Shown here piece by piece: positions 1,475 to 62,350 of a stretch of 64,000 nucleotides of DNA (position 1 is the stretch's first letter; each line of letters starts with the position of its first letter). The notes beneath the pieces are model-generated. The model did no database searches. It had not been told where the DNA came from and worked only from the letters and a program-made list of their open reading frames with translations. The stretch covers positions 10,581,450-10,645,449 of the forward strand of contig NC_067200.1 in assembly GCF_000699445.3 (NCBI RefSeq), in the 5' to 3' direction. The DNA is from Schistosoma haematobium. Its lineage: Eukaryota > Platyhelminthes > Trematoda > Strigeidida > Schistosomatidae. The translations under genes were made by a program, and so were the position numbers.

Positions 1475-3912
1475 CACGTCATGGTTTCCTAGTAGTTGAT
1501 CCAATTGCTATTTATACAATGCCAGCTTATATTATGCGTGAATTACGTTTAACTGATACTCGTGATGGTTCCACACGAACTGTACGTCAATTTGATGCAA
1601 GTTCAACAGCCGATGCATTAATTCATTTAGAAAGACAAATTTATTATTCTATATCTAATAAATTAGATTTTAATGAATTAATTGAATCATCTAGACCGAT
1701 AGCAGGATCGACAATAACAACAGCATCATCAACAATGACATCATTTCCACCTAATCCTTCATCAATGTTAGAAACGTCATTTACTGAAGATGATTTTCTT
1801 AGATTTAATCAAATACCAACTCATGTGATCTCAACGTTTAGACAATGTTATCAACCAATATGTGAATCGATGCTTGAGTTAATTAGTCAAGTACATAAAA
1901 CCAAAGAACATTTTGGTATAGATGGACCAATCACTGTACATTGCAAGTATGTTTTATTCACTCTATCTCTTCTTTTTTGTATAATATTCAGTTTAACATC
2001 CGTCACAGATTATCAAGAAGACAATACAAAATCCTTTGATTATGTATCAGGTGAATCAAAATAATGCTTATGATGTTATCTGGTAAAGTGTTTGCCATCT
2101 CGACAAAGTATGTGCATTGACCACACCAATAAGAATCAGGTTCAGTACTTTTGAATCCCACAATGAACGCTTACACTTTAAACTCCTAAGTTGCTAGCTC
2201 ACGGTTTACATTTCTAATTTCGCTTGATTCCCGATAATCCGTAACAACTATACCTTATCTTTGGCGATATTCGCCTTACACGTAACACAGTTTCACTCCA
2301 ATTGTGTCACGACTTATGACTAGCAGACGTAACAGTATTATTATCACATTACATTTTCGACGCCACCGATTTTGAAAAAGAGAGATACACAACGTTACAC
2401 TACTTGGGATGTAAAACTGCCTTTCATTATTTTATTCAGTCTTAGCCAGTGTATTGTTAACGCTAACGAACGACTAAGTGTAATTGGGATTGATTTTGTG
2501 TTTGTGGTTACGAATGATGTATGAACTGATAACCCGTATAGTCAGTCATGTCGACACCAAGACTGTGACTTATCAGTTATATCAAGTAGAAATATTGTTT
2601 TATCCAACATTAACTAATGCTGCAAAGTAATACCATGATGATCGCTACACCAAGAAGTGTTTTGTAGGAGTTCACACAAACAAAAGATAAATGATGAACA
2701 CAAGTTCATATCATTGCCAACGATTGATCTCTAACTTTAGTAAATAAAGAACATTGAAATTTTTTTAAAATTAACTAGCTTATACAGAAGCTGTTTGCTA
2801 GTTAAAAATTTTGAGAGGAAGTCTACCGTTTAGGTTTTTTTATGGTTGACATTCATGGTTGTATGGAACTTATCTGCAGCAATTATTGACAACCTATTCA
2901 GGATTCAAATACAGAACATTCATGTCTGGCGGTGTGCTACAAACCTTGGGACTACTGAGTCAGCAGTCACATTATTACGTAATCCCGTACTAAGTCGAAA
3001 CGGTTGTCCAGTGTTTCTTGGTTTCCGACGATCGCCTAACTATAGTCAGTCTCTGATGTAAATAACAACAGTCAAAAAGCTTTAAAAACTTTACAGATTG
3101 AGAAAAAGTACACCAATTAAGAGAAATAATAAGGAATAATTCTAAATACAATTAAATGTAATATTCTAATAGGCAACAACAACCTTGAGAAGTATGAAAT
3201 ACTTTTATTGTAAAAGATTGCGTTTTACTGTTCCGAAAGTTGATGGCCAACTGAACAAATTTGCTCAGCGGATTACGCATTGTTGCCTGAAGCCAAATTT
3301 TCTAGGTTCAAGTGTTGTTGAGAACATCAACAATAGGACAAAAACACACATTCCACACTTAACTGTTAGATACCGTCTAAAATCGTGAAATAATCTATTT
3401 CATCTTGCGATAAACACATTTCTATCATCAGTGGTTTTGATGTTAGACTTCTATACCAATGGGTTCTGGATCTGTTATTCGAAGGTTTAAGGTAGTATAT
3501 TCATTCCCTGTCAGTGGAATCGAAAATACCTACCGTTGAGGGGTCCAATACTAGGACAATGTAACTGTCCAGAGCTTTTAGGTTTTCATTAGTTGTCTAA
3601 CTTCAGTTGATTCATAATCTTATTTGCATTAAATAATCTTTACGAATACCCATACTAATAATCATTACTGTTTATTTTCACTACATTTCTTTTTCTTTTT
3701 TATTCAGTTTGGGTTCTGGAATAACCGGTGTCTTCTTAGCCAGTTCTTTAGTACTTGAACGAATGCGTTATGAAGGTGTAATTGATATGTTTCAAACTGT
3801 TAAATTATTAAGATGGCAACGACCAGGTTTAGTACAAACCGTTAGTGAATATGCATTCTGTTATGCTACAGCATTAGAATATCTTGAGTCTTTCGAACGA
3901 TATACAACATAA
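1475..3912 (+). CDS. LAR-type receptor tyrosine phosphatase, C-terminal (D2) exons; 5' part lies outside the window
   Basis: Two exons: 1475-1946 and 3708-3912, with an intron at 1947-3707 (donor GTATGT, acceptor TTTATTCAG). The exon before the first begins left of the window or is not visible. Translation gives [17 protein letters not shown], then [14 protein letters not shown], then [21 protein letters not shown], and after the intron [20 protein letters not shown] and [18 protein letters not shown] before TAA. These match, block for block, the second phosphatase domain and C-terminus of LAR/PTPRS/PTPRD proteins, membrane receptors in axon and cell-adhesion signalling. Two features are odd. 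The signature HCxxGxxR reads HCNLGSGI, so the catalytic Arg is Ile and this domain cannot be a normal phosphatase. The stretch that should hold the WPD/WPE loop is replaced by about 75 Ser/Thr-rich residues. Inactive or weak D2 domains are usual in this family, so the gene may well be functional. Family call is confident; exact orthology is not. Confidence 0.9.
2900..3060 (+). repeat. SINE family B, heavily decayed copy
   Basis: Within the phosphatase intron. Recognisable only by the GTCGAAACGGTTGTCCAGTG block and the following CTTGGTTTCC...CTAAC 3' region. Confidence 0.4.
3455..3625 (+). repeat. SINE family B, heavily decayed copy
   Basis: Second decayed copy in the same intron: TGAGGGGTCCAATACTAGGA, then GTCCAGAGCTTTTAGG and a degraded family 3' end. 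Confidence 0.45.
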
Positions 3913-5765: not shown

Positions 5766-5956
5766 ATGTTAAATTAATAATGAAATGATATTGGATTATT
5801 CGACTGATGATATTTCAACTAATAATTTATCAGTCCTAGTTAGTATCTGTGCATTCTATGTGGGATCATTTTAAAATGGTCATTGTGACACATGTTTAAA
5901 TAGAACAATGGAATTTGACACATGTGTTTTGTTCTATTTGATATTTGTTAGCTTGA

Positions 5957-8900
5957 TTTATTTGCATCCCATAGTTGATTTCTATTCTAAGATATGCATA
6001 ACCAACAATTTGATTATTTAAATCATTTAAAATCAAGTTGCAATCAATCTAATAATCACATCTTCACACAAAAAAGACGTATTTATGGAAGTAAACAATA
6101 TCTCACAGTGTATCTCATTTTGTCAGTGATATAACTACCATTGATAAAGTGTTTACTACTTCGATTCCATCAAAACAATTAATCAAACACAAGGTGTTTA
6201 CTGAAATATACTGAGTCATTGAAAATCTAAATAATTGCTAGTAAATGAATGAATGACTTACTGAGAATTTCGTGTTCTTGGCTGTTAGCATTAATTGATT
6301 GATCAATCCGTCAATGTAAAAAGACATAGAGATATAATTCAAGACAAAGATATATTTAACATCAATTGCATCTAACAACTTTATGGTTAGTAATGATGAA
6401 CTTTTGAGTGATTTCTGCTCACTGTGAGGTTGACAGTTACCAAGTTCCATCTGTGGGTGGATGGATCGTTTCCGGATATTGAGGAGTCTTATATGAACAC
6501 TTAGCAGATTTCTAGTGTTTCATGATCTTCAAATGTTGCCTAATCAACATCATTCTGTGATGTAAATCATGATCATTTCCTATTTTGTAAAGTTGACGTC
6601 GATAATTGAAACTTTTAGTGTTCAGTATTTCTTCAAGTAGTACACTCCATGTTTATATTATCACATCAATAGTAAATACTATGTGGTTGATAATTTGCAT
6701 AAATTTTTCATAGTTTTAGATTTTAAAAGTCTACATTTCTAATGTACTTGACTTTATGACAGATCAATGATTTGATGACAGGATGATAATATCCTATATC
6801 TCAAACCAAACTAAGTCCAATGTCACTGGAACCTAAAACTTAATCATTGAAAGTTGAGTTGTTTTTTAGCTACTAAAGTTTAATTATACTTGTGATCATT
6901 GCAGTAAATAATTAATAATGTGAAATAAAATAAATGACTTACAATTCTTCTATAATTCAAATGGAAGCGATAAGATTTTGTTTAATGAATGAACTGTTTA
7001 TGAATTTGTTTGAAAGTGAATTGTTCCAGAAAAGAGTATGATCAAGCAATTGGATGTAGATATTTAAAGAAAGGGGGATTCCTCAGATCATATTCATTTG
7101 TAAGACAGTCACCGAAATAATGTTACTTATCAACATGTTTGGTTCAGACATCACCAACTAGATATCTTGAATAACTGTAAATGGCACTTAAAAGTGGAAC
7201 GGTTCTTTTAAAGAAAACTAAACTAAAATAATGACTAGAACAGTAAAAAACGATCACGTAAATTCAATGTTCACTCTCATTCTCAGTTGATAAATACAAA
7301 TCATATGACAGTTACATATTCATCAAAATAAACTGAATGTTTAAAAGAATTTCAAGTAGTATGGTTCTTTGTTTTATTAGTATGAAAGTGGAAATAATGA
7401 CCGGAACTGTTTCTGGTAAGATTTAAACAAAAATAAATAGCTAATTAGTAATTATTATTACTATTATTGTTTGAACACGTAAATACTGGTACAAAGGGGC
7501 ACCGAATTCATAAGTGACACACAATTCACTTGATTTGTGTGTGGGCTGTGATACTGCCTAGGTGCTCAGAGTGAAGCAGGTGATTTTCTTAGGGGCCACA
7601 CTCGGAGCCTCTGACCTAAAGGTCTGATCAACAAGACAATGGAGCAACGTAAGGAGGTGCAGTCCCATGGTAGCCGGTGACCAAAAATAGGTTCATACGT
7701 CTTTTGTTCCATCAGGATCCTGGAATCCATGTGCACCGTTGGTTTGGAAACAGGGTTTTCCAACTCCCCTAGGTGGACTGTCCATGTCCACCAACCCGGT
7801 TAGAGTCCCGGACATTCACTTTTCGTCCCTTTAATCTCTAAGAAAACATCCTTTTCGCGAGGTAGGTAGTGAGTAGTTAGTAGGACTTTCCTGGTAAAGG
7901 CTATATATACGTGGCCATATGAGAGGAGGAGCTAACTTTCTCCACCCTCGTCTGTTCCAAGACATTTATGGGCTAATAAGTAACTGCAGTAACTTGAGAA
8001 TCTTTCCATAATACATTGATGAAGAAAGTGTTTTTGAATGTACACTCAGTTTATTCTTATAAGTTTAAAAATCATACGAATATTTCAAACATTAATCAAC
8101 TCATTTCATCATTGTTGACATAATCGACTTTCAAAGGAAGTTAAAACAGCGTTAACGGTTGAAACCTGATCGATTTGTGTGATCTTAGAAAACAGATTTA
8201 AAAACTGAATTGTTACTTCTAGAATAATATGATGTGACTTACTGTCCATTGAAGTTTTGAAGTCTTCTTTGCTATTGATGTGAAAAGATTCAGGTTATTA
8301 GAATGATATGATTAACATAGTGTGTATCGGTGACAACACATTGTTGATGGAACACAATACGTTATATGGGATACAAAACATTCCTGAATAAAAAGTTAGT
8401 CAGCTATCTGGAAAGCACTGGGAAATGTTTGAGTTGTTGAATTAATGTTAAAAATTTTTATTTGTACTGATGAATCATTCAGATGAACTTCTACACGTCA
8501 TTTCTCAATTCAGTAATAATGTTCCATCTCGATATCACTGGAAATTGGATTACATTTGAGTCTGATATACGGTTCCATTACATAGTACACTTCCTTCTTC
8601 GTTTCCCATATGGTGTAAAATTCTCAATGCTAATCTTATCCGACTGCTTAATAATTATCTCTACCATATTAAATGGTTATCAAAGACTGGAGAGTTTAAA
8701 ACTGCCATACTATTGATTCGCAATTAAAGATTCATTTTTATCGAATACAGTTGAATTGTGGTTTGAAAAGTCATTCACATAGCGAGGTCGATAACACTCA
8801 TCACATTTGTGATATGACTGAATTTTATAGATCACAACTTTGTAATGAATATGAGTTGTGTAGCTCGTGGACTGGAATCATTTTGAGGTTGTGAATATAT

Positions 8901-11900
8901 ATAGAGCTCTATAGACACAATTTAAAGTATACCATGGTTAAGTATTCTCTTCTTTTCAAATGATATCAGTCAGTTTTAGATGGTGGTTGGAGGTAGTCAA
9001 CAGGAAACCCTGGACCCGGGTTTCGTGCTACTTGGCACTCGTCAGCAAGGTGTACCTGTAATCTTGAGGGAACTGGTGCTCCCTGGCTGATTCGATCTCG
9101 TGTCACTCAGCTTCACATTCAGAGACGTTGCCACTGAGCTATCCGAGCCGTGACTAATAAGGACTAGACAAGCATGACATTGATCACCACCCAGTGATCA
9201 ATCAATTGTGATTACATCTCAGTCCTACAGGAGGTTAGTCACAGCTCGGATAGCTCAGTGGTAACGTCTCTGACTGTGAAGCTGAGTGACACGAGATCGA
9301 ATCAGCCAGGGAGCACCAGTTCCCTCAAGATTACAGGTACACCTTGCTGACGAGTGCCAAGTAGCACGAAACCCGGGTCCAGGGTTTCCTGTTGACTACC
9401 TCCAACCACCATCTAAATCTCAATACATAATGCCCGCAGTGTCGAGTCACCTAGACTGGTGGCCACATTGCAACATGATCGATAGCATTCGATCTGCACT
9501 AATAGGGACTAGACAAGCATGACATTGATCACCACCCAGTGATCAATCAATTGTGATCTCAGTCAGTGTTCAAAACTGAAGTAACCGTAAATCAAATTAC
9601 GCAAATGTTAATAATCAGTGAACTTTGAGTACAGAATACAAAACTTTCATCTGCAAACGTATTTGTAAAACAAAATAATACAGTAATAATATGAACTCAC
9701 TGGACAAAGCTGAAATTCATGTAGATTGTTGATTTGTTATCAAAGAAGAATTGGTCGACATGAATTATGTTTACACGTTTCTACATATATCTGGGTCAAA
9801 TGCCTACATTAGTCTAAAATTATGTAAAATTTCCTAATTATCTGTTTTGGTGCACGAGTGACATGAAATGATCTGAAATCTCTCCTGTTCAGTATTATCG
9901 ATATACACAGGGCTTTGAAAGTTTTAAATAAGAATTTATGAGAGCTTAAACTATTCCATTGATGGATTTCAAGTCTACCTTCTAATTAGTCTTTGATGGC
10001 ATATATACATTCTGTGTTGCTGGCATCGATTCATACATTCTGTTAAAGCATTTTAGAAGAGATGGGATTAAAGGATGTTCAATTAGTAATATCTAGTTCT
10101 CATCATACTGGATGAACGTTCATTTAGTCCTGGTGTTCACAAATAGAACGAAACGAGCTTTCTAGATCCTACTATTAGCTATGATTAATCAATTCCGATA
10201 TGATTTTTACTCCAAAATTTACAACTACTTCATGTGAAAATGTAACTTGGTTAATTCCACATTCTGCTTTAAAACTTGAAAATGAATTCAATTATTTCAT
10301 GCAAATATGCCTAGACGCTTTCATATCGATTTATTTTTGAATATTCTGTCAAGCCTTGGTTAAACTATTGATCATCAGTTCATTCAATTTTTGGTAGTAG
10401 GTTACGAACGTAAGTACAAAAACCTGTCATTGATCTTTTATCAAAATGTTTGTTGGTTATAAGTAGTTCTTTTCAAAGGTCATCTGCCGACTTTCCGCAA
10501 GAAATCTTTCATTCATTTATCAAATTATTAAAAATTAAATAAACTACTCAAAACACTTACATGTTTGAACTGGATAAAGGTTTTAAACATACAAATATTT
10601 AAGATAGTAAAGATTTGTAGCTCAGGCGGATGATTTTAGAGCTCCACGACCAAACCATCCAACTCAGAGAACAAAACCCCATCAAAATACAAATATTTAA
10701 CATTAATACAGCCATTGGAAATAATTCTCATTACTTTATATGCGAAGTACAATGTCAGTTAAAATGTTTGAATCTCAATGAGTAACTATGATTTCTTGAT
10801 ATTTAACCAAACATCTTTTCAACTAAATCTTGACTGCTTGTCAATAGGCAGAAAGTTCTACTGTGGTGCGTTCTACTTATATTCATATAAGTAGTTTATG
10901 ACGCGAGTCAGGAATGTAATATCTGGCAGCAGAAGATGGGGAAGATCAGGAAAGGAAGAACGGGACTAGAAAGTAATTAGTATGGGAATGCAAGAACAAG
11001 GAAGTTCAAGACAATTATTGAACATTTTTTAAATTAAGTATTATAGTATGGTTTTTCTATTTTACCAACTCTGTAATTTTGTGTTAGATATAATTCGATT
11101 GTCCCCACCCGTGTTCTGTTCACTACACTACTACTTCAAATTACTGTTTGATGGGAATAATTTGAATTGTAAACCTGTTAGAAACTTAATTGATCATTTA
11201 ATTGAATCAATCAATTTCGACTGAAACTATTATTCCGCTACATAGTTATACTCACTTGAGTATTTCGTTTGTCAGATTGAAATCATGAGTCAGTTGAAGC
11301 TAGACCACCATGGAAAACCTGGAAGCACTGGACGGCCGTTTCGTCCTAGTATGGGACTCCTCAGCAGCGCGCACTGCTGACTCATGATTTCAATCTGTGA
11401 AATTTCTAAAATCTCCACAAACCCCTTCTGATATTTCATTTGTGTTAAAATACACGTATTTCATTTTTACTAACTAATGATAACAATAATAATAGTTGTT
11501 TTCAGTTAGAAATTAACTGTTGCCGGATAATATTGCTACATTCCATGTAAAATGAATTTGAAGAGTATAGTTCAGATTCTGTTTGTGTTTATCATCAAAA
11601 TCTTTAATGTTTCTTTTTAACATTCATTTTTAGAAGCAGTGATGTAATTGTTGAGAGTAAAACTTTTTAAGTTAGATGAACTTACTCTACGAGCCTTGAA
11701 AATGTGAAGAATTGCAAGTAAAGTACATATGTTAAAAGATGTAGATGTTGTAAGCAAAGATGGATGATGGTTAGCAATGGAATCTAGTACGCGCTTTTCG
11801 TCCTATTTGGGACACATCAGCTGGATGTACCTGCATCTCAGAGTTGATATTCACTCCGAGACTCGAACCTAGTACCATTTGCTTCAAATACCATTACATT

Positions 11901-14900
11901 ATTCGCTTAGGACGAAACGCGTGTCCTGAAAACTGTTCATTTTGAATAAAACGTCTAACAATTGAATGTAATCGATACAAAATAAAATGACCCTGAATGT
12001 GAAGTAACTCTGTTGTTAAACCTTTACCTAATTAACATAATTTGGGTTTCGATATAGCTTGGTATAGGAGACAAATGAGTAGTAGTAAATAAGATGAGCG
12101 ACAGTAAAGAATGGGCATAAAAGTGTGAGTAATCGTTATCGTCATTATCATAAACCAGTAGATGATACTTAACATATTATAAATTCATCTGATCACATGA
12201 AATCAGCCTTCAAGTATATGTAAATTAATTTTTTAAACAAATTTGATTTAATCAAGTTAACATGAAATCAGTAGTCAACTGAATTTCGATCTACTAATTG
12301 TGTAGTATTATGGTTGTCATTTGGAATGGAAAGTATGTCCTCAATCTCATGGCATGTCTTGCTGGTAGACATTCATAATTTGTCAAAGTCAAAAAGAATA
12401 TCTAATTCGTAAGTGGTCTAAACATGAATGCTTGACGCTATCAATTTATCGATACAATAAATATCAGAAAGGGTTTATTGTAGATTTTAGTAATTTCAGT
12501 AGTTGGGATCATGACTCAATTAAAGCTAGACCAGCATGGAAAACCTGGAAGTACTGGACGGCCGTTTTGTCCCATTGTGGGACTCCTCAGCACTGTGCAT
12601 CCATGACCCGACCTCACGGGATTCGAACCCGACCTGATCATATTTCTTCAAACCATTTAAATTGTGATAATGGTCACTTATCCTATCAACAATTAAATAT
12701 CTGCTTTCTTACGATAAATATTTAATAAGATCAATTATCTGTAGCAATATGTACCAATAAAATGAACAATATCAATGGTCCAGTGTATGACGAAATAGAA
12801 TAATAGAGGAATTACAAATTTGGCACACAACAACAAATTCATAGATAAGATTTATAAATATATGGTATTTCTCACATAAGGTATCTGTAAAATCCGAGCA
12901 ATACAAAATAAACAAAGACATACATTTCATCATAATCCTGAGTGTTTTGTTTTATAGGAATTTGTTTCATCATCTTAGATCAATTTATCATGTTAGATCA
13001 TTCAATGCACGTATTTCTATGGAATGTGTTTTGAAGCACAATAGTCAATCTACACTTGATACTGTGTTAGTCAGACAGTAGTCAGAAATGTTGAAGCCAT
13101 CATAAATATTGTCATAGCCTAAGGCCGCCAATCAGAAGCAGTGAATTATCGATCGGATCAAGGACGCGTAAAACACGCGTGAGCAGTCTAGAGTCCTGAT
13201 TGGTCCTGCTTTCCGCCTAGCCCAGCCAATTAAGTCCAAAACACCTATCCGAACCTCTGCAATATGAATCATTATATGCCAAACATACTGAGTTCATATA
13301 CCAATCAAACAGACCACAACGTACCATTAAAATATGAAACAACATTTGTACAAGATTTGGCCAAATGTGGCTGTGAATGTGGGACGCAGTGACTAACAGA
13401 TAGGGCATAATTCAACAATAGTAAAACGTATGATAATGGTTCATAGGTCAAAATGAAGTTTATAATAATAGGAATGTGAATATGAATAGTTTTGTTATCT
13501 AACAATTATACGATAGAAATATACGTTTAGTATTGGTCCATAAATGGATCCCAAAGTTACCATCCATTATGTTTATCGGGACCTAACAAATATGTATCAG
13601 TTTATGTTGTCATATCCAAATTAGTATATTGAGATAAGATTATCATGACAAGAATTGAAGTAATGATAGATACTAAGAACAGTGTCCAAGCAAAATATAC
13701 AATTGGTTTATAGAGGAGTGAAAATAGTAGAATAGAACTTACGTTACAATCCTAAGGTTAATTTTGAATAACAGAGAGATGATTTATATTTGGTAGTTAT
13801 TAAATGACAATCTAACAAATTTTGATGAAAATATCTCAATGAATGTCCTCTCACTACTGATAGTAATATTGTATTCAATTACTTAAACTATTTGACATAA
13901 CAAACATCAAGGAGAATTGAATTATGCTTAAAAGCGACTCATTGTACTAAGCTCACTTTTAAAGAATGTAATTAGTATTGTGATGTGTGCTACTTATATC
14001 GATATAAGTAGTATATGACGCTAGTCAGGATTAAAACGTCTGGTAGCAGAAGGTTAGGATGATCGAGGAGGAAAGAACGGGAACATAATGTAATTGGGAT
14101 GGAGATGCATGAACATTGAAGTCTGAGATAATTGACTGACATTTGCAAAAGGAACAGTCAAGTTTAAGACAATTGATTGACATTTTGCAAATGAAGAACT
14201 AATTCTTTTTATTAAGCTTTAATTGTTACTGATATATTGAGATAAAATGACAATAAACACTTCATGTAGTATACAAGATTATCCGATCAACAAGTAACCA
14301 TCTACTTTCTAATGAGTTACATCGGAAATCATCGAACAATGATGTTGTTTAATAAATTTATCATGAGTGTATTGTAAGTTTTCTAATTTCTTAAAATTAA
14401 TTGAGTCTGTTTTCCATGTACCTCAAATAATGGTTTCTCTGGTTGTCAGAAGGAGCATCAGCCACGTGACTTTCGAAGGAACTCGAATTTCACTATGAGG
14501 CCTCATAACTCTTCTAAATGGAGACCTTCTAACTCCCAGGGAAGAGTTTAAATGTTTTGAATTGTTTTCTGGTTAGCGTTTTTTTAGCGAGTTAGTTTTC
14601 TACGGGCAGCATCATTGATGAACACGGTGGATCTGATGCAGATGCGGAGGCACGAATCCAACTGAAGAACATCTGGAACTCAAAAAACTGTCTATCAACC
14701 AACAACAAGGTCAGAATTTTCAATGCATATGTCAAAACAGTTCTACTGTTAAGGGTGGAAACTTGGAGAACTAATAAAGCCATCATCCAGAAGATACAAG
14801 TGTTTATTAACAGTTGTCTACGCAAAATACTTCAGATCCGTTGACCAGACACTACCAGCAACAACCTACTGTGGGAGAGAACAGACCAGACTTCAGAGGA

Positions 14901-17657
14901 GAAAGAAATCAGGAAGAAGCGCTGGAAGTGGATAGACCACACATTGAGGAAAGCACCCAACTGCGTCACAAGACAAGCCCTCACATGGAATCCTGAAGGC
15001 CAATGGAGGAGAGGAAGACCAAAGTACATATTACGCCGAGAGATGGAGACAGACATGAGAAGAATGAACAACAATTGGATATAACTAGATAGGAAGGCCC
15101 AGGACAGAGTGGGTTGGAGAATGCTGGTCGGCGGCCTATGATCGATTGGGAGTAACAGGCTTAAGTAAGTAAGTAAATTTAGTGTTTCAGTATGATTAGT
15201 TCTCTCTTTTAATTTAAATCAATTGCATTATGTGTTGATAAACATTAAATTTATGTACATTTAATAATCCCTATATTTAAACAAATACATTTAACATTTA
15301 AGATGTAAAATCAACTTACATCATCCGACTACGGTAATGAATGGAATGAATTGATTTAGTTACAAAAATAATATGTCCCCTTACAGTTTTGAAACTTGTC
15401 TTAATGTATGTTATTCATCAAATGTAGCATTTGGAAATCTTATCCGATAATTGTCAAACTGATATAGTTTGTTAAATCGGTATTCACTTATCTAGATAGC
15501 TGTTCTTCATTTCATAAAGATCCCTCATGGATTATTATAATTTAAATCTGAATTCGTTTTATGAAATAAGATTAAAATAGTTGGGTCATGTTAATATGTC
15601 CTAGGAATCAATGTATTTTATCTGTGTTTCTTCCATTGTCGTATGTCTTTATCAACAAACCTTATGGAAATTTGGTGTAATCCTCCTACAAATAATTCAA
15701 GGAGTTATATGGAGATTCGCCTAATTTGTGTATTGTACTTATTATATGTTGATCCCAGTGAGGATGCAATAACTGATACATAGTCTTGATTCTTATATTA
15801 TTTTATATATGAATTATTATCTTGGCTGGTCAAATTTATCCGTTATTCATTACTTCAGATTAAGATATCCAAAAATTCACTTTATATCTATTCACAAGGA
15901 AGTGAATGATCTAAATTACACCATATGAGTAGGACATTTCAACCATAGACGAAATTGCTAACTAGTATCTCAATGATTCTCTATTAGATGTTATGCGTAG
16001 CTGTAAATTTCTTTTCACTTTTGTAATAATTATAAAGCAAGTAATGCATTCGATTGGTCCTTTCAATGAACAACAATTTATCATCATTTGGAAAAATCTT
16101 GACTTACTAATTGCCTAGAGTTTTCAACTGAATAAAAATAGAATTTACAGGTATATTGGAAGAAGTATTATGATCATTGTTGAAATGATCCAGAAAATTG
16201 TTTGCAAAAGACAAGCAAGCATCAGGAAACACTAAGAAGCGTTTCATCCAGTCAGCGTTCACTTGAAGTCTTAGCCAAAAATATCAAAGAAGCGAAACGT
16301 CACATGTAGAGGTTCTGATTGGCTGATTGCCACACTGCTACTATGTTTAGTACCATTTCCAGAATCTTCTAGCAACCCAAGGACATTTAAAAACATTATA
16401 AAAACCCTGTATCTTCTGTATTAAAATGAACCTTGGAGTAAACCACTTCTCGCATACTTTGAGTCTTCTCTGTCGTGTTCAGGTCGCTGTATAGTTCTAG
16501 CTTGGGAGTTACAGAATAGCTTAGGAGACGAATATAGCGTTCAATCCGCAAGACTTATCAGTCATACACTTAAATCATAGTTTCATTAGTGAAATAAGAT
16601 TGATCACAATGGTGAACAACCGATGACGATGTATGGAAATGATCAAGTAGACCATTTGAATGTCTGACAATTATTTTACGGAGAAGTCTTATTATTTATC
16701 GTCCTACACGTCAGTTAGACAAGACAACAAGACAATTAATAGATTGGAATATTTGTAAAAGGATGCGCGAATAGTATTTTGCATATTTATCTATAGCAAC
16801 TCACGTGCAATTGAGTTTGTTCTCATTTAATTCATTTAAACCCTTTTGTTAACTTATTTATTTAGCAGACAAAGTCATCCGTACTATAACAACTTATTGT
16901 ACCTTTATTATTGTTGTGCTTGTATGAAATATGTATGCTTGAACATTACTTACTGCCTACGCATATATTCGTTCTGCTAGCTTTATTGTTAACTGCTTAG
17001 TTGATTCGATGATCCATTCATTTCCCTATATATATGCATGTACATTTAACACTCTACACTCTCGGTTCGCTGACTCACTCACTCGCCTCACTGATTTGTG
17101 ATCTGAGTTATCTACTAATAAAACTGTAGTCGCTGCTTCTCTTTGCCTTCTGATTTTAAACACCGTTGAGGATTATATGATAACGATTACGAGGGTGATT
17201 GGTCAACGATGCACAGCCACTACATATCTATCTTATTCATCCAGCAATAAGTATTTTAATGTTATACCCCTTTGTTAACAATAAAGGAAACAGTGTTTGT
17301 GTATGTTCATACGAAACAACCAAAAAAAAACAGAATTTCCGAAATACTTTACAGAAAAAACATTTTTAGATATATATGGTGTAATTTTATGATACGAATA
17401 ATTGCATACTTCATAATGTATCCTACGGCTAATTTAATAATTTCATCATCAAACTATGGCGTTTCAATACATCTTCAGTATGGTTTATACAACATGATAC
17501 TGATTTCTGTAGTGTCATGAAGTTACATAGCAACCTCTGATGATCATTTATTGAAAACATTAAAATGTCTAATTAACAATGCAAAATACCTACCAGGTGT
17601 TGAATTGATCGTCACACAGATCAACGCAGTCAGAGTTAAACAGAAGATTACTTTCAT
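5957..17657 (-). CDS. Probable micro-exon gene (MEG-like) encoding a short secreted protein
   Basis: Exon 1 (17657-17594) starts [20 protein letters not shown], a clear signal peptide, and ends at donor GTAGGT. Downstream on the minus strand are nine tiny exons, each with AG before it and GTAAGT or GTGAGT straight after: 16114-16108 (7 nt), 15328-15320 (9), 13751-13743 (9), 11694-11686 (9), 10570-10562 (9), 9709-9701 (9), 8271-8243 (29), 6949-6943 (7) and 6281-6262 (20). Joined, they stay open and read [37 protein letters not shown]. The last exon is unresolved; one candidate begins at 6200 after TTTCAG, and AATAAA lies at 5962-5957. Schistosome MEGs have this layout: a signal-peptide exon, then symmetric micro-exons, giving secreted variant proteins in glands and tegument. 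Exon 1 is strong, the five 9-nt exons good, the 7-, 20- and 29-nt exons less certain because alternative acceptors exist. The introns hold families C, D, F, G, H, I and R. I do not recognise a numbered MEG family. Confidence 0.6.
7465..8000. repeat. Family F interspersed repeat, copy 2
   Basis: Same ordered blocks as 5278-5765: TCACTTGATTTGTGTG, GTCCCATGGTAGCCGGTGAC, CAGGATCCTGGAATCCATGT. It lies in an intron of the micro-exon gene. Confidence 0.6.
9007..9051 (-). ncRNA. Hammerhead ribozyme, intact core (SINE D, left copy)
   Basis: On the minus strand: stem I ACCTTG pairs with CAGGGT, core CTGACGA, stem II GTGC/GCAC closing CAAGTA, then GAA, stem III ACCC/GGGT without a loop, cleavage triplet GTC. 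All conserved core bases are present. Type I architecture with very short stem III, as in Sm-alpha ribozymes. Confidence 0.8.
9342..9386 (+). ncRNA. Hammerhead ribozyme, intact core (SINE D, right copy)
   Basis: Same sequence as the left copy in opposite orientation. Predicted cleavage is after the C at 9380. Confidence 0.8.
10615..10685. repeat. Family E foldback, internal-deleted fragment
   Basis: GATTTGTAGCTCAGGCGGAT followed directly by the GAGCTCCACGACCAAACCAT block; the middle of the element is missing. Confidence 0.5.
10866..11120 (+). repeat. Family C repeat
   Basis: Starts with TGTGGTGCGTTCTACTTATA and its near-palindromic partner, then the GGCAGCAGAAGATGGGGAAG block, and ends near CCCACCCGTGTTCTGTTCAC. 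Other copies: 13980-14190, 24100-24240, 27895-28205, 54340-54605, 60265-60400 and 62885-63510. No coding capacity. Confidence 0.55.
11273..11397 (-). repeat. SINE family B, short form with 21-bp perfect terminal inverted repeats
   Basis: A 125-bp copy reduced to the hammerhead and the 3' end. Positions 11273-11293 and 11377-11397 are perfect reverse complements; both are the family 3'-terminal sequence (containing GACTCATGATTTCAATC). The tRNA-like head is absent. Confidence 0.7.
11325..11370 (-). ncRNA. Hammerhead ribozyme, intact core (SINE B)
   Basis: Minus strand: stem I GCGCTG/CAGTGC (one G-U), core CTGAGGA, stem II GTCC/GGAC, GAA, stem III ACGG/CCGT, cleavage triplet GTC. This is the only family B copy in the window that I judge fully intact; the others have at least one core or cleavage-site change. 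Confidence 0.7.
11750..11935 (-). repeat. SINE family A (Sm-alpha-like), decayed ribozyme
   Basis: Minus strand: tRNA-like head with GGTTCGAGTCTC-like B box, then CCAGCTGATGTGTCCCAAAT...GAAA. The core has A9 changed to T and the cleavage triplet is GTA. At 11910-11930 a short plus-strand piece (GGACGAAACGCGTGTCCTG) gives a snap-back end. Confidence 0.65.
12504..12650 (-). repeat. SINE family B copy
   Basis: Contains the 3' end, a hammerhead with GAAA changed to AAAA (G12 lost), and a B box (CGGGATTCGAACCC on the plus strand). Confidence 0.65.
13110..13588 (-). mobile_element. Solo LTR, family G
   Basis: 479 bp. On the minus strand it begins TGTTAGGTCCCGATAAACA and ends TGACA. The 5-bp duplication AATAT flanks it exactly (13105-13109 and 13589-13593). 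It carries a TATA-like element on the minus strand in the middle. No internal gag-pol remains, so this is a recombined solo LTR. Confidence 0.75.
13980..14190 (+). repeat. Family C repeat with perfect palindrome
   Basis: A 22-bp perfect palindrome lies at 13990-14011 (half site CTACTTATATC), followed by the TCTGGTAGCAGAAGGTTAGG block and the ACAATTGATTGACATTTTGC region. Confidence 0.55.
14565..15178 (+). mobile_element. RTE/SR2-like retrotransposon, internally deleted copy
   Basis: Begins with a 5' UTR piece (GGTTAGCGTTTTTTTAGCGA...TTCTACGGG, 14565-14606) joined directly to the C-terminal reverse-transcriptase region. Translating the plus strand across frame breaks gives [57 protein letters not shown]. 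It ends in AAGTAAGTAAGTAA, the short tandem tail typical of RTE elements. Non-functional. Confidence 0.7.
16186..16560 (+). repeat. Family H 375-bp LTR-like repeat, copy 1
   Basis: Starts TGATCC and ends TTATCA (TG...CA). It contains CATTATAAAAACCC as a possible TATA box and AATCTTCTAGCAACCC. Nearly identical to 23609-23983 (about 3 differences by eye). No clear target duplication at either copy. Confidence 0.55.
16792..17224 (+). mobile_element. Solo LTR, family I, copy 1
   Basis: 433 bp from TATAGCAACTCACG to GCCACTACA, flanked by the 4-bp duplication TATC (16788-16791, 17225-17228). It carries CCCTATATATATGC (TATA) and AATAAAACTG (poly(A)). The second copy at 48067-48543 is in reverse orientation. 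It lies in the first intron of the micro-exon gene. Confidence 0.65.
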
Positions 17658-17716
17658 GATGATCTACTTGCTTCTTTCTTCTCCGGTTCTGTCTAAATAC
17701 CGTAAACTGATTTCTA

Positions 17717-17724
17717 CTTTTATA
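17717..17724 (-). promoter_or_regulatory. TATA box of the micro-exon gene
   Basis: TATAAAAG on the minus strand, 60 bases upstream of the signal-peptide ATG at 17657. It leaves room for a short 5' UTR. Confidence 0.5.
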
Positions 17725-38077: not shown

Positions 38078-38635
38078 TCAACTGAGATAATAATAATATT
38101 GTTGTATGAATATAATATGTAATAAGGGGGGTGTTATCAAGGTAATTATGGTCAACAAATTGGGAATGATGGATATGAAGATTAACATAAAGATAATGAC
38201 AAATAATGATAATAAGGAAAATAAATAAAATAAAAGAAGGGGTAAGAGGTTTATAATATTCAGTCTAGGTATTCGGTGACACAGTCGTAGGCCATGGTAA
38301 ACATAGAGGCTGGATATATTTTTCTGGATGTATAAATTAGGTCTTCTGGAGTTGATGCAGATGGCTTCGGCTGTGTAAAGCAGTCGTAATCTAGCTCCTT
38401 GAGGTAGATATTTTGGAACTTGATATAAAACAGAGAAAGCTTCCTCTATTTTGAAATGATGTTCACTATCTACCAAGTGAGAAAGAATGGTGCTGTTAAT
38501 CGATTTGGTGACTCCTTTTCCCAACCATGCTGGCACATGTTCACGAACACGCAAGGATAAAGCCCTCTGAGTACGGCCTATGTAACTAGCTCCACAGGAG
38601 CAGTTGAATTGGTATACACACATGGAGAGGCCCAT
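38078..38635 (-). pseudogene. Penelope-like GIY-YIG endonuclease domain
   Basis: Reads CVYQFNCSCGASYIGRTQRA, then LRVREHVPAWLGKG, DSEHHFKIEE and LYTAEAICINSRRPNLYIQK. The Cys-x-Cys motif, YIG, the following Arg and the later Glu of the GIY-YIG fold are visible. It normally nicks target DNA for the element. The last 90 or so residues are hydrophobic low-complexity readthrough in AT-rich sequence and probably not part of the domain. The frame extends upstream to about 38805. Confidence 0.8.
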
Positions 38636-38801
38636 CTTCGGTAACTTTTCCTTGATTAGTTGTGTGAGTACTGGTTTAGTCGAGAAAGTTATGTGTATCT
38701 TGGCGGCATGAAACGTCCTCTCGACAGATCTTTTGAGTCGACGTGTTAGAATATCACCCGCTATGTCGCCTTTAAAGTCAAGTTTCAGATATAAGGTCTT
38801 T

Positions 38802-39656
38802 TTACTGACTGTGTTGCAATGTTTTCTCTTTTAATACTTTGCACGAGGTATTTTTGACGAAATTATCAGAATAGCCATTATTACGTAAAGTGTTCTTTAG
38901 TATAACTATTTCTTCCTCCACACTGTCTTCAGAACATAATAACTTGGTTCTGTGGTTGAGACACTTAACCAAATTTATTTTGTATTGCAGAGGTGTGAAG
39001 CTTTGGAAATGGGTATACTGACCCGTCCATGTACACTTTCTAAACATTTTTCGCTTTATGGAACCATCTATCCTTCTAGAGAGTCGGACATCTAGAAAAG
39101 CTATGCTATTGTCCTTCTCCTCCTCGCTGGTGAATTTAATGGCTGAGTGGACATTATTGAAAGCGTCTAACATCTCCTGTTTGTCGATATTTTCGTCACA
39201 TATGATTAATGTGTCATCTATGTATCGACAGTAATAATCAAGCTTATTTGGGATGTCTTTAAGCGGTCCATTTTCTAGTTTGGTCAGAAAAATATTAGCA
39301 AGGATCGGGCCTAGAGGTGATCCCATTGCTACCCCATCTACTTGTCGGAAAAATTCATTGTTAAACTTAAAGTAGATATTCATAGTGCATTTCAAGAGTT
39401 CTTTCATTTTATTTATTGGGATAGGAATCTCTATTTTCTTTTCTATCAGTTGTTCACATATATAATCTATAGTTTCAGTCAGAGGGATGTTAGTGAACAA
39501 AGATGTTATGTCCAGTGATAGCATGGTTTTTCCCTTTATATTCATATTTTTAATTGTATCAACAAATTCAAAGACGTCTTTAACACTATGCTTAGAAAGT
39601 TCTTGGTGCAATGGTTCTAATAACTTAACTAACCATTTTGCTGTTGAATTTGCCAT
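38802..39656 (-). pseudogene. Penelope-like reverse transcriptase domain
   Basis: 284 codons. Visible RT motifs in order: MLSLDITSLFTNIPL (first catalytic Asp), GVAMGSPLGPILANIF, YCRYIDDTLI (the YxDD-equivalent pair of Asp), and IAFLDVRLSR. Just upstream, in the same frame, LYGLPKTHKPDIPLRPI continues to the left of the first Met, showing that the Met is not the true start. Catalytic residues are intact; the protein as a whole is broken by neighbouring frameshifts. Confidence 0.85.
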
Positions 39657-39748
39657 ATCCAGTATCGGGCGTAGAGGAATATCAGGTTTATGGGTCTTAG
39701 GTAGACCATATAGTCGAGGGTATGTGTTTCAGAAGGCTTAAGCATATT

Positions 39749-40611
39749 TTAGGTATGTTCAGAGATGTGTTGGTGTTGATTTAGAAATTTTAATGCTGCA
39801 ATTAGTTGGCGTTCGGTCTTTTCATTGAGGTCTTTACATGACCCAAGCTTTTGGAATTTAGTTTGATCACTCAGTAGTGAATTCATCTTATCTATGTAGT
39901 CTGTCCTGTTTAGAATTACCGTGCCTGATCCTTTATCAGGTTTAGTGATAAGAATGTGTTCATTCAACTTGAGTTTCCGGATGGCCTCACGGTGTTTATC
40001 TGTCAATATACTATTTGTGTAGTGCTTATTGCTTTTAAATTGGTTACAGCAATCAACCAGCGTGATTTTGAATCGTTCATGTTCGACCTTTGTCGTGGGT
40101 TTTAAGTCTTGTGTCTGGGTAAATAGATTCTCGAACTGAACATCCATCTTCAAATGATCCACATGTCTACGACTATCACAAAACTTAGGACCTAATGATA
40201 ACACTTCTAGTTGAGTCCTATCAAGATTAACAGAGGAAAAGTTGAAAACATACCGCTTACAGTCGTCTGGAAAATCCGGTTTAAAGATCTGTTTGTCTAG
40301 TCCTTTGATTGGGTCGATTCTTTTTTGTTCTCCCTCGTTCTTTGCACTTCAAGGACATAAGTCATAAACGAATCCTTTAAGTTTGGGGGAAGGTCTTCAA
40401 CAGAATATAATCTCTGTGTAATATTCCTTTCTAATTCAACTATATACGTTTGAAGAGATTCGATTTGCCTAAGTGCATATCTCTTGAGCGACTTAATGTT
40501 ATGTTTAATTTTACATCGACGTAAGGATTTGCAATAGTCTTTCGGATATCGGTGTATAACAGTGCAATTACGGATAAAATCCAAATTAGTTTTCGCTTCC
40601 GTGAGTTTCAT
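39749..40611 (-). pseudogene. Penelope-like N-terminal region
   Basis: Two frames, 40611-40297 and 40204-39749, joined by an open stretch reading RIDPIKGLDKQIFKPDFPDD after a frameshift. It holds VLSLGPKFC and ITKPDKGSGTVILNRTDY, the conserved segments that precede the RT in Penelope-like proteins. Confidence 0.7.
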
Positions 40612-41005: not shown

Positions 41006-41505
41006 NNNNNNNNNNNNNNNNNNNNNNNNNNNNNNNNNNNNNNNNNNNNNNNNNNNNNNNNNNNNNNNNNNNNNNNNNNNNNNNNNNNNNNNNNNNNNNN
41101 NNNNNNNNNNNNNNNNNNNNNNNNNNNNNNNNNNNNNNNNNNNNNNNNNNNNNNNNNNNNNNNNNNNNNNNNNNNNNNNNNNNNNNNNNNNNNNNNNNNN
41201 NNNNNNNNNNNNNNNNNNNNNNNNNNNNNNNNNNNNNNNNNNNNNNNNNNNNNNNNNNNNNNNNNNNNNNNNNNNNNNNNNNNNNNNNNNNNNNNNNNNN
41301 NNNNNNNNNNNNNNNNNNNNNNNNNNNNNNNNNNNNNNNNNNNNNNNNNNNNNNNNNNNNNNNNNNNNNNNNNNNNNNNNNNNNNNNNNNNNNNNNNNNN
41401 NNNNNNNNNNNNNNNNNNNNNNNNNNNNNNNNNNNNNNNNNNNNNNNNNNNNNNNNNNNNNNNNNNNNNNNNNNNNNNNNNNNNNNNNNNNNNNNNNNNN
41501 NNNNN
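41006..41505. other. Assembly gap of 500 N
   Basis: Exactly 500 N; a round number usual for scaffolding joins of unknown length. Confidence 0.99.

Positions 41506-61194: not shown

Positions 61195-62350
<1,156 letters not shown>

Follow-up and report, generated by a model that had tools for sequence, protein, structure and literature searches.

The question raised by this locus is whether a series of very short blocks on the minus strand of a 64,000-nt stretch of Schistosoma haematobium DNA (hereafter the window, contig NC_067200.1) represents the exons of a single micro-exon gene (MEG). A signal-peptide exon behind a TATA box and nine minus-strand blocks of 7-29 nt, each bounded by AG and GTAAGT or GTGAGT, had been claimed in the original prediction, and all of these elements are present. 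With a probability of roughly 0.84, the blocks are spliced into one MEG, the product of which would be a small basic peptide (about 70 residues) that is likely secreted.

The gene model comprises 12 exons, all of them on the minus strand. The TATA box (TATAAAAG, 17717-17724) lies 67 nt 5' of the ATG at 17657, with which the 64-nt coding part of the first exon (E1, 17594-17657, donor GTAGGT) begins. The start of E1 is signal-peptide-like as judged by hydropathy alone, and the combination of ATG, hydrophobic core, TATA box and donor was found at six places in 264 kb (both strands), E1 included. E2 (16108-16127, 20 nt), which has the highest acceptor score of the set and leads from phase 1 to phase 0, is followed by six exons of exactly 9 nt, namely E3 (15320-15328, SDD), E4 (13743-13751, DCN), E5 (12876-12884, IPY), E6 (11686-11694, ARR), E7 (10561-10569, FKH) and E8 (9701-9709, LCP). 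Downstream of these are E9 (8243-8271), with a length of 29 nt (24 or 21 nt if inner AGs are used), E10 (6943-6949, 7 nt), E11 (6262-6281, 20 nt) and the terminal exon E12 (5957-6200), in which the stop codon, the 3' UTR and an AATAAA (first base 5962) are located. The ten internal blocks (E2-E11, 7-29 nt) are all bounded by AG and GT; the donors of E2-E4 and E6-E11 are GTAAGT or GTGAGT, and that of E5 is GTGAGA. E4, with a GTAAGT donor and a weak acceptor (score -1.9), is the least certain of the six 9-nt exons. The predicted introns are 1466, 779, 1568, 858, 1181, 1116, 851, 1429, 1293, 661 and 61 nt in length, respectively. The five 9-nt blocks listed originally are thus all retained, and the list itself had to be extended by a sixth one (E5) and by the terminal exon. 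One or two further candidates lie outside the model, that is, a 26-nt exon (12713-12738), which would shift the downstream frame, and a 28-nt exon between E10 and E11 (6423-6450), which has a GTGAGC donor, a strong acceptor and no other match in 264 kb and would give an alternative C-terminus.

By joining the 12 exons, a single open frame of 71 codons was obtained, with the phases 1,0,0,0,0,0,0,0,2,0,2 at the exon ends. The frame without E5, presumed to correspond to the exon set originally said to stay open throughout, is likewise open (68 codons). The predicted product has 71 aa, a mass of 8.3 kDa with the signal peptide and a pI of 9.8. Insertion of the 28-nt block into the 12-exon chain also left the frame open, with its stop in the TAA at the very start of E12. 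Each of E3-E8 is divisible by three and, in the model, in phase 0, so that any of them could be skipped with the frame kept, and 64 combinations are available on paper by cassette skipping. The lengths of E2, E9, E10 and E11 are no multiples of three, and these exons would therefore be constitutive or paired (E9 and E10 together have 36 nt and are in frame as a pair). Transcription would proceed from the TATA box at 17724, the exons would be spliced in the listed order, and the signal peptide would be cleaved to release a secreted product; skipping among E3-E8 would then yield peptides differing by 3-residue steps. By analogy with known MEGs, such variable peptides may be secreted at the host interface.

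The 9-nt spacing was compared with chance in the 11.8-kb region holding the gene (5900-17700). Of the GTRAGT donors, 5 of 14 in the region have an AG exactly 9 nt upstream; in the remainder of the window, on both strands together, the count is 3 of 71 (Fisher p = 0.0025). The per-donor chance of an AG at 9 nt is about 3-4%, so the earlier estimate of 6% was somewhat high, and its conclusion that chance is unlikely was borne out. In order-4 Markov copies of the region, the mean count for GTRAGT was 0.48; five at 9 nt were reached in none of 300 copies, and five at any length in one of 300. With the laxer donor GTRAG, AG stood at 9 nt in 6/24 donors in the region versus 10/176 outside it, and six at 9 nt were obtained in 1/300 simulations. 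The comparison was also done by using donor and acceptor scores, which are based on generic frequencies with thresholds chosen after the region had been seen. Eleven scored micro-exon candidates (5-36 nt) were found in the region versus 3.4 expected from the surroundings, and five of the eleven are 9 nt long; E4 and E11 are below the strict splice-site thresholds. The rest of the window has 36 scored candidates, none of 9 nt, and the other 516 kb of strand (window plus 100 kb on each side, same contig) has 149, two of which are 9 nt. Five versus two under strict thresholds corresponds to a Poisson probability of about 1.6e-9, uncorrected for the chosen length, place and thresholds, and five versus eleven under loose thresholds to 6.7e-6, uncorrected for the chosen length and place. 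When donors and acceptors were slid against each other in the region, every other offset from 5 to 399 gave at most two under the strict setting, and with the thresholds relaxed in three ways the counts at 9 nt were 5, 5 and 6 versus 3, 4 and 5, respectively, for whichever other offset did best. The excess of 9-nt spacing is not due to chance.

The exons also avoid the repeats of the region. Repeats, defined as 14 intervals matching other places in 264 kb, make up 34.6% of 5900-17700, and none of the 12 model exons lies inside them. Taken with 60-nt flanks, 11 of the 12 exons have no second match in the 264 kb, and E12 has one. The DNA surrounding E1, the peptide of E1-E2 and the DNA of E11-E12 each match only themselves in the whole genome, so no close paralogue was seen. 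Together with the spacing statistics, the avoidance of repeats lends good support to the MEG layout proposed originally. Duplication was considered as a source of the 9-nt exons and rejected, since their 250-nt flanks have no common sequence apart from two short matches, one of 27 nt between E6 and E11 and one of 21 nt within the flanks of E7.

The exon set itself was examined by a frame-aware chain search. Without masking, five rival exons were picked (17111-17079, 14992-14985, 14890-14870, 13370-13325 and 11299-11256), which with their flanks have 2, 7, 10, 8 and 86 matches in 264 kb, respectively, self-matches included; all five overlap repeat intervals and were rejected for this reason. 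After repeat masking, the best chain at all four penalties includes E2, E3, E5-E10 and 6450-6423, and at penalties of 3.5, 4.0 and 4.5 (not 5.0) 12738-12713 is added, by which the downstream frame is changed and the ARR-FKH-LCP reading is lost. E4 appears in none of the masked-search chains listed, and the 71-codon chain was never the top one. These results bear on the explanation that the gene is real and its mature transcript is another one, with E4 unused, 6450-6423 or 12738-12713 used and the protein reading or ending differently, for which the odds are put at about even. The masked chains, and the fact that the frame stays open through 6450-6423 to the opening TAA of E12, argue for such a transcript; E4, however, is exactly 9 nt long and has a GTAAGT donor, an unlikely coincidence beside five others, 12738-12713 would put E6-E8 in another phase, and chains with different 3' ends, and hence different C-termini, score only about one unit apart. 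More confidence can therefore be placed in the core exon set than in E4, in the exact reading or in the C-terminus.

It is improbable that the pattern is an accidental run of AG-N9-GTRAG in AT-rich, intron-like DNA downstream of an unrelated ATG. Five candidates of any one length were obtained in none of 400 simulations under strict thresholds and in one of 400 under loose ones, the strict density (5 in 11.8 kb versus 2 in 516 kb) speaks against such a run, and so does the position of the exons outside repeats. Points in its favour are that the region was chosen for its pattern, that a search of 5.8 billion proteins yielded no homologue, that the GTRAG count was matched at some length in 14 of 300 simulations, and that under loose thresholds the other 516 kb yielded 11 nine-nt candidates and, at one place outside the region, five with a spacing of 34 nt, by which it is seen that same-length clusters do occur. 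The donors belong on the same side: most metazoan donors have G at -1 and donors relying on GTAAGT or GTGAGT alone are unusual, and here, with the 28-nt candidate included, just one donor in 12 has G at -1. The least probable explanation is that the MEG has decayed or fallen silent, with its splice sites surviving in a gene out of use. The weak E4 acceptor, the lack of a matching protein in the database searched and the repeat content of about 35% would suit a decayed gene, but every splice dinucleotide is intact, as are the TATA box, the AATAAA and the frame, neither gene end has a second copy in the genome, and enrichment in transposable elements is usual for MEGs according to the excerpted part of PMC4350168. 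A MEG spliced from the minus-strand blocks thus remains the preferred reading.

For this MEG, a further and unlikely elaboration would be an unannotated family of 3-residue cassettes in which splicing selects the size of a disulphide loop in the secreted basic peptide. The two cysteines of the cassettes are in E4 (DCN) and E8 (LCP), and both are retained in 16 of the possible combinations; skipping of E5, E6 or E7 would shrink the loop by exactly three residues at a time (CX11C, CX8C, CX5C or CX2C), and skipping of E4 or E8 would abolish it. The idea depends on E4, which is the weakest cassette.

The model was then compared with known MEGs as described in excerpts of the published papers. Schistosome MEGs have two long flanking exons, with the signal peptide in the 5' exon, and central micro-exons of less than 36 bp, and their products average about 10 kDa (PMC4671649); for the symmetric exons a size of 6-36 bp is given, and the products are described as secreted or exposed (PMC5825161). 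The locus is like schistosome MEGs in its 5'-exon signal peptide, which by hydropathy lies mostly or entirely in E1 as is described for the 5' flanking exon (PMC4671649), in its very short central exons (7-29 nt, under the 36 bp of the same source), in its skippable frame-neutral exons, in its small predicted product (71 aa, less than 10 kDa) and in its long repeat-bearing introns (661-1568 nt, all but the last). By the criteria given for Hymenolepis microstoma MEGs in the excerpted text of PMC7653826, the 12-exon model fits in exon number (12 predicted, at least seven required) and in micro-exon runs, with six consecutive 9-nt ones in E3-E8 (five without E4; the longest run would be three if 12738-12713 is used); these make up 6/12 of the exons in the model, 6/13 with the 28-nt exon and 5/11 without E4. 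The signal-peptide consensus of one H. microstoma family (PMC7653826) differs from E1 by eye.

Several differences were also noted. Micro-exons divisible by three number 6 of 10 here versus 26 of 33 in MEG-26 to -32 (PMC4671649). In S. mansoni MEGs, most exons have 15 bp and the minimum intron is 100 bp (PMC10526429), unlike the six consecutive 9-nt exons and the last predicted intron of 61 nt here, and no description of runs of exactly 9-nt exons was met in the excerpts of MEG literature examined. The motif FL-phi-phi-F-X6-W-p-(K/H/R), stated for all S. mansoni MEGs after the signal peptide (PMC10526429, in part), is absent here: by eye, the 71-aa model is without tryptophan and no model has FL, and the motif is no definition of the class. 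Of the motif C-X5/7/9-H-X3/5/7-C of the red-clade MEGs (MEG-1, -3, -9, -28, -29 and -31; PMC10526429), the model has C-X9-H if E4 is used, but H and the following C are separated by a single residue instead of the 3, 5 or 7 that the motif needs, and the CGGL and CLY motifs are absent from the model. Taken together, the gene is very likely a real MEG of an already known class.

Database and literature searches were done with the predicted peptides. Among 5.8 billion proteins, none of about 39-124 aa has three 5-residue words in common with either of two 71-aa models. As a control, the reverse-transcriptase ORF 38802-39656 was matched by proteins from S. rodhaini, S. mansoni, S. bovis, S. mattheei, S. 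curassoni and others, and no S. haematobium name was present among the 120 matches listed, many of which were nameless. Pfam, NCBIfam and PDB gave nothing above the cut-off for the models, and the PDB matches all had E > 0.5. A match to COX6B in Pfam (E = 0.01-0.04, below the cut-off) was obtained only with models having the 29-nt E9 and was gone with the 24-nt E9, and it was rejected. The strings of the model peptides and 'MEG-33' were not mentioned in the open-licence literature searched, the MEG families being numbered up to MEG-32 (PMC4671649, PMC5825161, PMC10526429), and 109 MEGs were counted in one S. mansoni release (PMC7653826, in part). Since no homologue was found in a database in which several Schistosoma species are represented, the gene is likely unannotated, in line with what had been expected of the locus. 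It could also be the S. haematobium counterpart of a numbered MEG, because, of 25 S. mansoni families, at least 23 are reported to have an equivalent in S. haematobium (PMC4350168, as excerpted).

Further features were recorded within the predicted introns. Of 13 type I hammerhead ribozymes (Rfam) in the window, four are located there, at 9007-9051, 11325-11370 and 11782-11826 on the minus strand and at 9341-9385 on the plus strand; the three that share the strand of the gene could cleave its transcript before splicing. In the predicted E8-E9 intron lies a 186-nt inverted repeat (8972-9157 and 9235-9420, 98% complementary, 77 nt between the arms), through which the transcript could form a long hairpin. 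Each arm has a hammerhead and, by eye, a tRNA-like stretch, and no tRNA was called in the arms by ARAGORN.

Other features lie away from the gene. On the plus strand, about 23.6-16.9 kb left of the window, well-scoring splice sites bound candidate micro-exons of 30, 30, 9 and 12 (or 30) nt, which possibly belong to a second micro-exon gene; no signal-peptide-like exon with TATA box and donor was found on that strand left of the window. Another signal-peptide-like first exon with TATA box and donor is located at about base 610 of L018 on the minus strand (MNTEIFFTSILLLFKCVVSFQFSR). An open histone H3-like ORF at 61368-61976 (minus strand, Pfam Histone 1.1e-44) has unusual tail residues, an added C-terminus and a start differing from the usual H3 start, and it is a variant or a retrocopy. 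Retroelement ORFs occupy 38078-40204 (minus strand), with an RVT_1 domain at 38802-39656 (81% identity to the best database match); the ORF 38078-38635 reads by eye like the GIY-YIG end of a Penelope-like element and was assigned no family by Pfam. A 181-aa ORF at 1519-2064 (plus strand), which matches tyrosine phosphatase below the threshold (E = 0.083), may be one exon of a phosphatase gene. The 500 consecutive N at 41006-41505 are an assembly gap or a withheld stretch.

MEGs are candidate host-interface secretions that are easily missed by gene finders, and a spacing test such as the one used here, in which scored splice sites are examined for an exact exon length and the hits are compared with repeats, can flag a MEG from DNA alone. 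With its six 9-nt cassettes, the gene would lend itself well to the question of how a spliceosome defines exons of only this length. If expressed, the gene adds an apparently unlisted secreted protein to a parasite of humans.
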